Shown here piece by piece: positions 24,401 through 30,400 of a DNA stretch of 64,000 nt (within the stretch, counting starts at the first letter, position 1; every line of letters begins with the position of its first letter). This stretch comes from Eublepharis macularius. Its lineage: Eukaryota > Chordata > Lepidosauria > Squamata > Eublepharidae. Under the pieces are notes generated by a model. It saw nothing but the letters and a program-made list of their open reading frames with translations, was not told where the DNA came from and searched no databases. Position numbers and translations under genes: made by a program. The stretch lies in NCBI RefSeq assembly GCF_028583425.1, contig NC_072790.1:160326397-160390396 (forward strand). Direction: 5' to 3'.

Positions 24401-27400
24401 TGCTATTCAAAACAGCCTTGTGCATTGTCTGAAAACCTAATTGCATAAACGCTTTCCTCAAAAGCTCTTGGAAGTAGTTTTGTTGAGAATAGTCCACCCA
24501 GATACAATTTTGCCACTATGAACAGTGAATATTCTGAATGGTTGTTGTGGGTTTTCCGGGCTGTATTGCCGTGGTCTTGGCATTGTAGTTCTTGACGTTT
24601 CGCCAGCAGCTGTGGCTGGCATCTTCAGAGATGTAGCACCAAAAGACAGAGATCTCTCAGTGTCACAGTGTGGAAAAGATGTAGGTCATTTGTATCTACT
24701 CAGGAGGGGTGGGGTTGAGCTGAGTCATCCTGTAAGAGTTTCCCAGGGTGTGGAATGCTAATGGCGGGAGGCTTCACTGTATCCTGAGAAGGTTCTTTTG
24801 CATATGGATTGGTACTTGATGTGCTAATCTTCTCTGCAGGGCTATTGTCAAGGATAGACTGTTTTGTTAGCCTGGTGTTTTTCAGAACTGGCAACCATGC
24901 TCGGTTCATTCTTAAGGTTTCTTCTTTCCTGTTGAAGTTTTGCTTATGCTTGTGAATTTCAATGGCTTCCCTGTGCAGTCTGACAAAGTAGTTGGAAGTG
25001 TTGTCCAGTATTTTGGTGTCCTGGAATAAGATACTGTGCCCTGTTTGAGTTAGGCTATGTTCAGCCACTGCTGATTTTTCAGGTTGTCCAAGTCTGCAGT
25101 GTCTTTCATGTTCTTTTATTCTTGTCTGGATGCTACGCTTTGTGGTCCCGATGTAAACTTGTCCACAGCTGCAGGGTATGCGGTATACTCCTGCAGAGGT
25201 TAGGGGGTCTCTACTGTCTTTTGCTGATCGTAGCATCTGTTGTATTTTTCGGGTGGGTCTGAATACTGCTTGAAGGTTATGCTTTTTCATAAGCTTTCCC
25301 ATCTGATCAGTAATTCCTTTGATATATGGCAAAAACACTTTTCCTGTGGGAGACTGTTTTTCTTTGGTTGTTTGCTTCATCCTGGGTTTGATTGCTCTTC
25401 GGATTTCATTTCTGGAGTAGCCATTTGCCTGAAGTGCGTGGTTTAGATGATTAATTTCCTCATTGAGAAAGTGCGGCTCACATATCCGTCTTGCACGATC
25501 CACTAATGTTTTCATTATGCCTCTTTTCTGTCGGGGATGGTGATTGGAGTTTTTGTGTAGGTACCGATCAGTGTGAGTTGGTTTCCTGTAGACCTTGTGA
25601 CCTAACTGAAAGTTTGCTTTGCGGATGACCCAGGTATCCAGGAATGGGAGTTTTCCCTCGATTTCTTTCTCCATGGTGAATTGTATGTTCAGGTGGATGT
25701 TGTTGAGATGATTCAAAAACCCCATCAATTCTTCCTCCCCATGGCTCCAAATGATAAATGTATCATCCACAAACCGGAACCATACACTAGGTTTGTGGGG
25801 TGCTGATTCTAGAGCTGTTTTTTCAAAATGTTCCATGTAGAAGTTTGCTATAACTGGGCTGAGTGGGCTCCCCATGGCCACCCCATCCATCTGTTCATAG
25901 AATTCGTTGTCCCATTGGAAGTAACTGGTTGTCAGGCAATGGTGGAATAAGGCTGTTACATCCTCTGGGAAAATCTGATTAATAAGTGCAATAGTGTCTT
26001 TTACTGGAACCTTGGTAAACAGGGATACAACATCAAAACTGACAAGCATGTCTTGTGGATTGAGTTTCAGAGAACTGATTTTGTTGATGAAATCTGCTGA
26101 ATCTTTGATGTAAGACGAGGTTTTCCCGATGTGGTCCTGCAGGAGATCTGCCAGATGTCTAGCTAATTCATATGTCGGTGAACCAATGGCACTCACAATG
26201 GGTCGGAGTGGGACTGAATCCTTATGTATTTTGGGGAGTCCATATAGTCTAGGTGGCTGTGCTTCAGTCTTGCATAGTTTTCTGTGCGTGTCGGGATGTA
26301 GTGAGGAATTCTTGATCAGCGCATTTGTTAGCCTGGTGATTTTGCAAGTGGGATCTCGTTTTAGTTTTTTGTAGGTGGAGGGGTCCAGGAGTTCCTTAAT
26401 CTTCTTTTTGTATTCCTCTGTTTTCATGATCACTGTAGCATTGCCTTTATCAGCTGGTAGAATGATGATGTCTGGATCTGCATTGAGGGTCTTGATGGCA
26501 TTTCTCTCCTTGCGTGTGATATTGCTGATCGGTACCTACACAAAAACTCCAATCACCATCCCCGACAGAAAAGAGGCATAATGAAAACATTAGTGGATCG
26601 TGCAAGACGGATATGTGAGCCGCACTTTCTCAATGAGGAAATTAATCATCTAAACCACGCACTTCAGGCAAATGGCTACTCCAGAAATGAAATCCGAAGA
26701 GCAATCAAACCCAGGATGAAGCAAACAACCAAAGAAAAACAGTCTCCCACAGGAAAAGTGTTTTTGCCATATATCAAAGGAATTACTGATCAGATGGGAA
26801 AGCTTATGAAAAAGCATAACCTTCAAGCAGTATTCAGACCCACCCGAAAAATACAACAGATGCTACGATCAGCAAAAGACAGTAGAGACCCCCTAACCTC
26901 TGCAGGAGTATACCGCATACCCTGCAGCTGTGGACAAGTTTACATCGGGACCACAAAGCGTAGCATCCAGACAAGAATAAAAGAACATGAAAGACACTGC
27001 AGACTTGGACAACCTGAAAAATCAGCAGTGGCTGAACATAGCCTAACTCAAACAGGGCACAGTATCTTATTCCAGGACACCAAAATACTGGACAACACTT
27101 CCAACTACTTTGTCAGACTGCACAGGGAAGCCATTGAAATTCACAAGCATAAGCAAAACTTCAACAGGAAAGAAGAAACCTTAAGAATGAACCGAGCATG
27201 GTTGCCAGTTCTGAAAAACACCAGGCTAACAAAACAGTCTATCCTTGACAATAGCCCTGCAGAGAAGATTAGCACATCAAGTACCAATCCATATGCAAAA
27301 GAACCTTCTCAGGATACAGTGAAGCCTCCCGCCATTAGCATTCCACACCCTGGGAAACTCTTACAGGATGACTCAGCTCAACCCCACCCCTCCTGAGTAG

Positions 27401-30400
27401 ATACAAATGACCTACATCTTTTCCACACTGTGACACTGAGAGATCTCTGTCTTTTGGTGCTACATCTCTGAAGATGCCAGCCACAGCTGCTGGCGAAACG
27501 TCAAGAACTACAATGCCAAGACCACGGCAATACAGCCCGGAAAACCCACAACAACCATCGTTCTCCGGCCGTGAAAGCCTTCGACAATACAATATTCTGA
27601 ATGATTCTCTCATTGTAGGAGATAATCTTAGTCAGAAAACTATTTAAAAGTAATATTCTTCTGGATCTTCTGTGCTCATTCTCTCTGTTGAGAGATCATA
27701 ACAAAGTGATAGCAACTTGTGTTGCTTTGCTTAACCACTTGAAGCTGACTTCCATAATGAAGTGCTGAAGCTGCCCGAAGAGACCATGTGTTAGAAACAT
27801 GGTTTTTCGAATCCTTGAATCAAAATTAATATGTTCTGTGCTTCGGAAGTGACGAAGAACAGTTTTTCTCAATCTCTTTGTGTATTTAGAATGTTGTGTG
27901 AAGAGGCCTAAATAGGGATATGAATCTGCGTCTTTCCTGTACTTTCTTCCTTGCAATAATGGCTATGAATGCTGGTAATGATATTCACAATTGCATTATC
28001 ACAACTTAAGAAGGAACCTTTCATGAAAAATTTGTTGAAGAGTGGCTCGAGAAGTTAGGCTAGTTTTGCTGCCTCCCAAACTCAAATGTCTTTAAAAGTT
28101 GGCAGGGCTCTGTAAAAACTCTCAAACTATGAGGGAAACTACATGGGTTGAATCCAGCTAGGTTTTCTACTAGATAATAAGGGAAGCAGTGATATGCTTT
28201 GACCACCAAAAAGGTTATGCTGGAGTCCGAGGGACCTGTATGGACAAAGGCAATTAGGGATGGATGGCTCTAGTAAGGAAGAGAATTCAGTGTGATTGGA
28301 CTTGATCAAACTCAATGGGTTTCTTGGCAAATCTTGGACTGCATTGTAAAATTCTGCATGTTTATTCTACTTGACTTTGTGATACTTATGTGATTTTTGA
28401 AAATACTTCTTTTTTTCTTCCTGTTAGATACTTGTTGCTTTGAGGAATTTACACTTTAAAAACATAGTGCACTGTGACTTAAAACCTGAAAATGTACTAT
28501 TAGCATCAGCTGAGCCATTTCCTCAGGTGGGTACGGCATAAAGATGGCTTTGTACTTGGCAGAACTATAGAATTCTCATTAGTATTTTTGTATGAATTTA
28601 GCATCATTTTTGTACTTTAGTCATGTCTCATAAGGTCATGCCCCAATTTTAAATAAGTATGTAGGTCTCTGAATAAATAGTTCACAAGTAAAATAGGACA
28701 CAAGCCACCACCACTCCAAACCTGAATGTTAAATAATGTTGGCCATCACACAGTCTCTCTACATGAGACATCTTACACAAGTACGCTCAAGTGTAGGGAG
28801 ACACAATGCTAGCCAGGAAGCGTAGTTTAAAAAAACAGAGCCAAAGGCTCTGTCAACTTCACCTCTTTACAGAGCTGCAAAGATCCCTCCTCAGAGGGTT
28901 TGTTAATTTTCTCTTCACCTCCTTAAAGGGGTGGTGAAATTAACAGAGGCTTCGGTTCTGTCTTTTTAAACTACGTTTCCCAGCTAGCATTGTGTCTCTC
29001 TAGACTTGAATGTTTTTGTGTAAGATGTCTCGTGTAGAGAGACTCACAGACTTCTGCCTTTCTGTAGACAGATACGTTTGTATGTATAGTGCATTGTAAT
29101 TTAATCAAAGTGCATATTTTCTTTACAGGTGAAGCTATGTGATTTTGGTTTTGCACGTATTATTGGTGAGAAGTCTTTCAGGCGGTCTGTGGTGGGAACT
29201 CCAGCTTATCTTGCCCCCGAGGTGCTTAGGAGTAAGGGCTACAATAGATCTCTGGATATGTGGTCAGTGGGGGTGATTATCTACGTGAGCCTTAGTGGTA
29301 CATTCCCATTTAATGAGGATGAAGACATAAATGATCAGATACAAAATGCAGCGTTTATGTATCCACCAAATCCTTGGAAGGAAATATCTAGTGAAGGTAA
29401 ATATAATCAGAAATGTTGGGGGAGGTATAGTATCTTGTTTCATAATACTGTCTAAATACTCATAATTGGTATGAGTATTCTCATACTTGGTTCCTAAGAA
29501 GAAAGGTCATGGCATTTATGATGTATGGAACTATGAACAGTGTTAATTAAATAACTGGATGAAAGGCAGTGGTGGGGTGGGTCTGTACATAAAGAAATCT
29601 CCAGTAGGGCCAGGAACTAAATTTAGACAATTTGCAATCTGTTATTTTATTTACTTCATTTATACCCTACTTTTCTCCCCAATAGGGACCTAAAGCAGTT
29701 TACATTGTTCTCCTCTCCTCCAGTTTATCCTGACAGCAATTCTCTGAGGTATGCTAGGTCGATAGTGTGCAGTTGGCACAGCATCACCCACCAAGCTTCC
29801 ATGGCAGAGTGGGGATTTGAACCTAGGTCTTCCAGATCGTAATAAGACAGTCTAACCACTACACTACATTGGCTTTCATTTTTTTTAACAGCATACCTTT
29901 CCACTGAACATAAACTTTTAGATGTAATAATCCAGTCTAAAGAGCGTAAAGAAAACTTTCTTAATTGTAGATGTTAAATTGTATTGAAAATATCCAAAGT
30001 TTTTAAAGTATTCCATTATTCGACTTTGCTAAACTCAGCAGGATATAGTCCCAATTAAAATTTACCAGATTTCAGCATAGGATGCCATTACATCCAGTTA
30101 CCAGCGAAACTTTAGTTCTTGATTTCAGAGGGAGATGAATCACTCCATTACTGAGTGTTTACACGTAAGCACAGGCTTTTAAAGCTTTCCTTTTGTCTCT
30201 TGAATGTTTTGTGTAAGTCTCTTGGCTTGATATATTCAGTTTTTCTTTCAAAACTATTATTAAGGGGCACAGGGAAGAAATTAAATGTTTGTCCTAATTA
30301 TTTGTTCACTTGCTTCCTCCTCCAGCTATCGATTTAATAAACAATTTGCTGCAAGTGAAAATGAGAAAACGTTACAGTGTTGACAAATCTCTTAGTCATC

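Follow-up and report, generated by a model that had tools for sequence, protein, structure and literature searches.

Head-to-head pairs of Penelope-like elements in Eublepharis macularius with one tailed and one tail-less outer end, probably formed by two-ended target-primed reverse transcription

The window (the whole 64-kb stretch of Eublepharis macularius DNA analysed here) contains, at 24528..27603, a palindrome that is made of two 5'-truncated Penelope-like element (PLE) units placed head to head. The two outer ends of such pairs obey a simple rule: one carries a short tail and the other does not, in 32/32 cases (29 fetched loci elsewhere in the genome and the window pairs W2, W3 and W4, W3 being the palindrome itself). 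We argue that each pair is very probably inserted in a single event, through two-ended target-primed reverse transcription, which starts at two adjacent sites of the element and is completed by end-joining.

Anatomy of the palindrome, element identity and host gene

The features of the palindrome are the following.

24528..24540, no strand: left copy of the target-site duplication (TSD), AATATTCTGAATG, whose final 3 bases (ATG) match the element too
24538..25571, minus strand: left arm of the perfect inverted repeat
24541..26527, minus strand: left PLE unit, ~1.99 kb, 5'-truncated, with a tail-less 3' end (start site A)
24700..26535, minus strand: open frame of 611 codons, stop to stop, with the reverse transcriptase (RT) and C-terminal regions
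26525..26527, no strand: inner head-to-head junction, CTG common to both units
26525..27558, plus strand: right arm of the perfect inverted repeat
26525..27590, plus strand: right PLE unit, ~1.07 kb, 5'-truncated, with a tailed 3' end (start site B)
27559..27590, plus strand: tail between start sites A and B, 32 nt, in the right unit only
27591..27603, no strand: right copy of the TSD, 13 bp

The arms are 1034 nt long and separated by a spacer of 953 nt; a chance origin of so many perfect bases can be excluded. The original prediction held that the arms mirror each other without any indel, and indeed they do, with the same coordinate sum of 52096; aligned with each other in search of substitutions, they are 100% complementary over their entire length, so that the 1,029 bp given earlier was nearly the right size, if slightly short. 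The exact 13-bp TSD that had been described around the entire structure is present at both ends, and the fact that a single TSD encloses the whole indicates one integration event, as was proposed, instead of two insertions. The halves were also said to meet at a shared GATC. Comparison with L011, a further copy of the element, shows the shared bases to be CTG, and GATC (26527-26530) lies in the right unit alone. The first few codons of the 611-codon frame lie past this junction.

The outer ends are unequal, the right unit having 32 nt which are absent from the left unit. The match of the left unit to the element extends to element position 1998, inside the TSD overlap (the ATG at 24538-24540 is common to TSD and element), while the 3' end of the right unit is at element position 2030-2031.

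Both the RT and the C-terminal regions lie in the left unit, whose RT domain (RVT_1, E 2.6e-12, above the cut-off) agrees with the assignment to the PLEs. A GVY..YIG motif is visible by eye in the C-terminal region. The Pfam family T5orf172, which we take to be a member of the GIY-YIG group, scores below the cut-off in both frames (0.043 in the right, 1 in the left), and a search of the two frames for the Pfam GIY-YIG domain itself found none. The repeat period of the element is 2669 nt, and tandem or partial-tandem (pLTR) organisation is seen in other copies: L011 spans 1.33 periods (4951-8500), and L018, L024 and L027 exceed one period. The optional 30-40-bp tail at one end is present, as the ~33-nt gap between outer ends. 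Elements of the Poseidon/PAc type have a hammerhead ribozyme at the start of the ORF. The segment CTGAAGA...GAAACGTC at 27468-27502 looks like the core of such a ribozyme; Rfam gave no hammerhead up to E 5. The same Rfam search returned two chance-level hits.

Two other types of element were considered and rejected. A DNA transposon with terminal inverted repeats, in which a unique core is framed by inverted termini of fixed extent, does not suit arms whose length varies widely between loci and which hold coding sequence of an RT element. In LINE-1 twin priming, two primers at one break give rise to an inversion that is joined by microhomology and enclosed in one TSD. The likeness to our pairs lies in the two primers per target break, the single TSD and the microhomology at the join; however, a twin-primed LINE-1 has a single 3' end and its second cDNA starts inside the element, whereas here both outer ends are 3' starts of the element.

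The insertion lies in an intron of a protein kinase D gene, most likely PRKD3. For a PH-domain exon in the window, PDB 2d9z (protein kinase C nu type) scores 2.2e-38 and the D2 type 3.6e-16; the match list has no D1-type entry, so that this test leaves room for PRKD1. The kinase exon alone has Chk2 as its sole match at E 1e-20 or better. The exon of the catalytic loop (HCDLKPEN) lies at ~28470 on the plus strand, 0.87 kb past the insertion, which agrees with the position ahead of this exon that had been predicted. The anatomy likewise supports the suggestion that PRKD3 pre-mRNA could potentially form a kilobase hairpin.

Survey of sister copies

The genome was searched with the left arm as query; 40 of the 3116 candidates were scored, and these gave 33 loci outside the window. 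The sample is confined to a single family in a single genome, represented by the copies that match best, and a locus with two long arms could be picked up twice over. Thirty of the 33 loci have the two-unit, head-to-head anatomy with a TSD of 10-16 bp (found in 30/30 fetched two-unit loci), and three are single units. The palindrome, whose rarity was implied by the original prediction, is thus recurrent, and is the usual insertion product in this sample. No two of the 29 TSDs located by script are alike and the 5' ends vary, which means that the insertion events are independent.

In all 30 two-unit loci, one outer end is at element position 1995-1999 and the other ~33 nt further out. This includes L028, which is mixed too, its partner unit being merely 8 nt of tail-start sequence. 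The same start site is used twice in none of the 30; independent choice of site would give mixed ends in at most half of the loci (0.5^30 = 9e-10). The window contains three more pairs.

5385..6107, head to head: W1, an older PLE pair, ~90-94% identity
20074..20408: W2, second two-unit PLE, minus unit tailed, plus unit tail-less
43708..43983: W4, third two-unit PLE, minus unit tailed, plus unit tail-less

The arms of W2 are 148 nt long (100%) and are accompanied by a 9-bp direct repeat, AACTCAAAG, the left copy of which stands 6 nt off the unit; those of W4 are 121 nt long (99%), with a TSD of 12 bp. W2 to W4 conform to the mixed-end rule. W1 is an exception and counts against a two-ended model, since both its ends are tail-less; it has no clear TSD.

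The three single units count against a two-ended model as well: L009 is tail-less with a TSD of 13, and L029 and L034 are both tailed, with no TSD found when one was looked for. Three copies were met by chance in the fetched stretches and stand outside all counts: a short pair with mixed ends and a 12-bp TSD (L017, 7898-8048), a pair running off the end of its stretch (L012, 8671-10000), and a single tailed unit whose direct repeat is at most 7 bp and set off from the unit (L016, 3240-4432), which also counts against. Also outside the counts, two of 16 loci beyond the set (C16:27.61 Mb and C6:17.09 Mb) have one tailed and one tail-less end, from match coordinates alone, and a 122-bp query, for which 40 of the 1033 candidates were scored, gave at least 38 other loci, 11 of them with an inverted match nearby, likewise from coordinates only.

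Once the tail is allowed for, the length difference between the two units exceeds 10 nt in 27 of the 30 fetched loci, and the units are nearly equal (within 10 nt) in three. The tail-less unit reaches further 5' in 15 loci, the tailed unit in 12, and the two are about equal in 3. Equal 5' ends, within 6 nt, occur in 2/29 (permutation P 0.02); this is weak support for a shared template end, and with such a P value we dropped it as a proof of one. The inner junctions mostly have a 2-5-bp overlap or an insert: 13 of 17 insert-free joins overlap by at least 2 bp (null 15%, p 3e-8), and 14 other junctions have inserts of 1-39 nt, several of which are copied from nearby sequence.

The arms of one locus have the same source sequence. 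At 12 subfamily sites they agree in 140/140 comparisons (29 fetched loci and W3), while 2000 shuffled pairings give a mean agreement of 0.65 and a maximum of 0.82; these sites are linked, so that the comparisons do not amount to 140 independent tests. Arms differ by 0.14% within a locus, versus 0.45% between loci. Of the variants private to one of 30 loci, 8 are in both arms and 32 in one arm only; one of the eight, at 1944 in W3, had a further occurrence in another unit according to an earlier tally of the first 20 fetched loci and W3.

The context past the nick is T-rich on both sides: T occupies three successive positions in 21, 23, 17 and 16, 20, 19 of 32 cases, per side, as raw counts without a shuffled control.

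Proposed mechanism and competing explanations

The following sequence of steps would account for the pairs. The nuclease of the element would nick both strands ~12-14 nt apart, as the TSDs suggest, leaving 3' overhangs. With element RNA as template, each overhang would prime a separate cDNA, so that the pair face each other, in keeping with the anatomy. Site A (element position 1995-1999) is the starting point of one cDNA, and site B, ~33 nt further 3', is that of the second; both come from the same source sequence, probably from the same RNA molecule, which may be held by a ribonucleoprotein (RNP) with two reverse transcriptases. The junctions bear the signature of cDNA 3' ends joined via short microhomology or partly templated inserts, for which a polymerase-theta-like enzyme is a candidate. 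Last, each cDNA would serve as template for the other, giving the head-to-head palindrome without separate priming of a second strand.

A stricter proposal, which we make tentatively and rate as somewhat short of probable, is that PLE integration is obligatorily two-ended: one RNA in a two-headed RNP would be copied from two dedicated sites 33 nt apart, one per cut strand, the cDNAs would cross-prime on end-joining, LINE-type second-strand synthesis would be needless, and the tail would mark the strand that used the outer site. Against the general mechanism, the start sites used by the Anolis PLE protein in vitro did not differ between top and bottom strand (PMC11167929). One RNA copied twice requires the trailing enzyme to displace the first cDNA, yet the tailed, trailing unit reaches further 5' in 12/30 loci; a prediction of the one-RNA step, namely that the longer 5' reach is always on the side of the tail-less, leading unit, was therefore rejected.

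A variant of two-ended priming, whose share of probability lies within that of the general mechanism, uses two RNAs transcribed from one source locus; an asymmetric protein dimer would then dictate the A/B pairing. We consider it a possibility of some weight. It predicts the same anatomy, explains the agreement of the arms by cis preference, and accommodates the many loci in which the tailed unit extends further 5'. It requires an extra rule to bar A-A and B-B pairs, and the eight shared private variants suit one RNA at least as well. The identity of the arms could also stem from such a pair of RNAs or from gene conversion between arms.

The self-primed synthesis suggested by the original prediction is improbable. 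A first cDNA or antisense RNA would fold back, and its copying would yield an inverted repeat ready for integration; for the PLEs of Adineta, an antisense template that primes itself has been proposed (PMC3846280). Head-to-head arms from one source, the near-palindromic centres of L017, L033, L041, W2 and W4, and junction inserts that in some cases match nearby sequence in inverted orientation would all be in line with it. Fold-back nevertheless predicts identical outer ends and arms of equal length, contrary to the mixed ends and the mostly differing corrected lengths reported above. Inverted copies of flanking DNA occur in one of the 30 two-unit loci (L019), where 22 nt at 86% are too short for a fold-back copy. 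Template switching, also invoked, may take part at the inner junction only.

Inverted repeat pairs can also form when an element lands, independently, within or next to an earlier insertion, which we regard as next to impossible here since one TSD encloses the whole at 30/30 fetched two-unit loci and the arms agree in source. A false inverted duplication in the assembly is just as implausible, the halves differing in ends and lengths, the TSD lying outside both and the same rule holding at 30 other places with different junctions; for the PRKD3 locus itself, an assembly error is excluded only indirectly, via this recurrence and asymmetry.

Relation to known PLEs and implications

PLEs have been described as a third class of eukaryotic retroelements, and their integration path is unsettled (PMC11167929). 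The purified protein of the PLE of Anolis carolinensis (Poseidon/PAc), predicted to be a dimer, cuts and extends both strands, and uses two adjacent internal RT start sites that define a 30-40-bp tail; the element is organised in tandem, as here (PMC11167929). The difference is that, in the cited part of that work, no link is drawn between the pair of sites and either the opposite ends of a single insertion or the inverted structure. The Penelope families of Adineta vaga have inverted pLTRs or repeats, mostly head to head, around one TSD, with an optional 31-bp tail at one inverted pLTR; antisense self-priming is proposed there, in the part cited, whereas the unequal arms and mixed ends found here favour two target-primed cDNAs (PMC3846280). 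Inverted PLEs, the tail and the two start sites are already published; for the strict pairing of one start of each kind we came across no earlier publication.

Should all double-ended insertions unite a cDNA from each of the two fixed sites, a common cause would account for the tail, for the TSD and for the inverted pLTRs, and self-priming would be unnecessary for this family. The model is testable with the existing purified protein and in any genome with young PLEs. If two-ended joining is true, introns can routinely acquire hairpin-forming palindromes from PLEs, and copies that seem to be solo can conceal very short partners, such as those of 8, 41 and 60 nt at L028, L024 and L020.

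The palindrome in the protein kinase D intron

The head-to-head insertion of a Penelope-like element (PLE) at 24528-27603, referred to as W3, is in an intron of a protein kinase D gene. In the list of matches for the PH exon of this gene, in which D1 has no entry, protein kinase C nu (PRKD3, entry 2d9z) is far ahead of the D2 type, and PRKD3, as originally assigned, is the most likely host gene; the catalytic-loop exon is indeed downstream, at about 28470. The original prediction described mirrored arms of 1,029 bp without any indel, and their alignment gives a perfect inverted repeat of 1034 nt (24538-25571 and 26525-27558, zero mismatches), the 13-bp target-site duplication (TSD) that encloses the whole structure being found outside this repeat. 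The shared GATC proposed at the meeting point has to be corrected, since the bases common to both units are CTG. A 32-nt tail is present on the right unit only. The palindrome is genuine. As a single locus it is what a known kind of element ordinarily produces, and what makes it interesting is the rule of which it is an example. Three more insertions of the same family are present in the window, all of them head to head.

PLE insertions in the window
24541-26527, minus strand: left unit of W3, 1.99 kb, with reverse transcriptase region (RVT_1)
26525-27590, plus strand: right unit of W3, 1.07 kb, 3' end with the 32-nt tail
5385-6107: W1, head-to-head pair, about 90-94% identical, both ends tail-less, no clear TSD
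20074-20408: W2, head-to-head pair, one end tailed, the other tail-less
43708-43983: W4, head-to-head pair, one end tailed, the other tail-less

W4 is a short, almost perfect palindrome whose units both begin at about element position 1874, and 11 of the 38 other loci listed from a separate genome search have an inverted match nearby. It may be that in such short palindromes the template was one short RNA and each enzyme copied it up to its 5' end.

Tailed and tail-less ends across the genome

The genome was searched with the left arm of W3, which contains neither the tail nor the partner unit (scoring covered 40 of 3116 first-look candidates). This gave at least 45 matches in at least 34 loci, the window's own being counted, and all 33 loci outside the window were fetched and mapped. 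Thirty consist of two opposed units within a TSD of 10-16 bp, where the partner can be very small (8 nt in L028, 41 nt in L024, 60 nt in L020), one unit of L030 has an internal deletion and L035 has a 21-nt piece of the element at its junction. The other three are single units: L009 is tail-less, with a TSD of 13 bp, while L029 and L034 are tailed and a TSD was looked for in both, with none found. A further lone tailed unit, at 3240-4432 of L016, has a 7-bp direct repeat (CCCACTC) whose left copy is about 18 nt off, and is possibly a one-sided insertion. The constrained TSD script missed L013, L041 and W2, whose TSDs (14, 15 and 9 bp, respectively) come from other passes.

One tailed and one tail-less end are present in 32 of 32 rows (29 fetched loci with W2, W3 and W4), and also in L028; the probability of mixed ends in the 30 fetched loci by independent choice is at most 9e-10. 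Either side of a locus can carry the tailed end, as expected. Tail-less ends are at element position 1995-1999 (1984 in the diverged W2), and most tailed ends at 2028-2037. Three of the tailed ends do not reach this range, and the sequence itself shows why: the TSD overlaps the end of the tail in L010, and an altered tail base halts the exact match in L013 and L041. The sequences around the start sites for tail-less and tailed ends (A and B) resemble each other: ACAACCATCG and ACAATACATCG, within element positions 1995-2035 (27555-27590 in the window, continuing in the comparison copy L011).

Source of the arms and inner junctions

Thirty loci were compared, W3 and 29 of the fetched two-unit loci. 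At 12 sites with two alleles, each allele in at least three of these loci, arms of the same locus are concordant in 140 of 140 comparisons, the sites being linked so that independent tests are fewer; shuffled pairings average 0.65. Eight single-locus variants, two of them at W3, are present in both arms of their locus, and 32 are confined to one arm, as expected from changes after or during copying. Divergence is 0.14% between arms versus 0.45% between loci.

Inner junctions were compared in 29 fetched loci, W3 and W4. Seventeen of these 31 are insert-free, 13 with an overlap of 2-5 bp (null 15%, p 3e-8) and four with 0-1. The other 14 have inserts of 1-39 nt, as defined by exact match, so that a later base change near the junction lengthens the insert. 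Seven of the nine inserts of at least 8 nt match nearby sequence over a greater length than in shuffled controls (each with P below 0.05, uncorrected); those of L014 and L035 have no such match within 200 bp, and the latter is partly element sequence from elsewhere. Overlaps and inserts copied from nearby are the signature of microhomology-mediated, polymerase-theta-like joining, and these junctions carry it. Truncation points at the 5' side recur in independent insertions (about element position 729 in L014 and L022, about 965 in W3 and L028), perhaps where synthesis stalls on the template or the template tends to break.

Proposed mechanism and further features

With the Anolis PLE protein, both strands are cut and extended in vitro, and synthesis starts internally at two adjacent sites, the tail being the sequence between them (PMC11167929). 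Each double-ended insertion would use both start sites, one per strand, which is the simplest account of this work and the genome data combined. Both cDNAs would be copied from one RNA: the common source of the arms and the pairing of A with B support this, but the 12 of 30 loci whose tailed unit extends further 5' sit less easily with it. Inverted PLEs arranged head to head, one end of which may bear a tail, are described from Adineta, where they were attributed to self-priming with an antisense strand as template (PMC3846280). Neither a two-ended model for PLEs nor a strict rule of one tailed and one tail-less end was found in the mostly open-access literature searched; older Penelope work may contain either.

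When the insertion sites are aligned as empty sites, each turned so that its tail-less side is to the left, a T-rich stretch follows both nicks with antiparallel symmetry (no shuffled control), as expected if the nuclease cuts both strands in the same way. The left and right flanks are not inverted duplicates of one another: one of 30 loci has a match (22 nt at 86%).

At 27468-27502 (plus strand), and in its left-arm mirror, CTGAAGA-stem-GAAACGTC resembles a hammerhead ribozyme core, but no hammerhead appears among the Rfam matches up to E 5. The motif is placed where the next ORF copy seems to begin, as in the Anolis PLE. By eye, long reverse-transcriptase-like and recombinase-like frames at 1802-4706 belong to another retroelement.

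Other inverted repeats in the window
32907-33012 and 33827-33932: 106 nt at 98%
37021-37097 and 37105-37181: 77 nt at 97%
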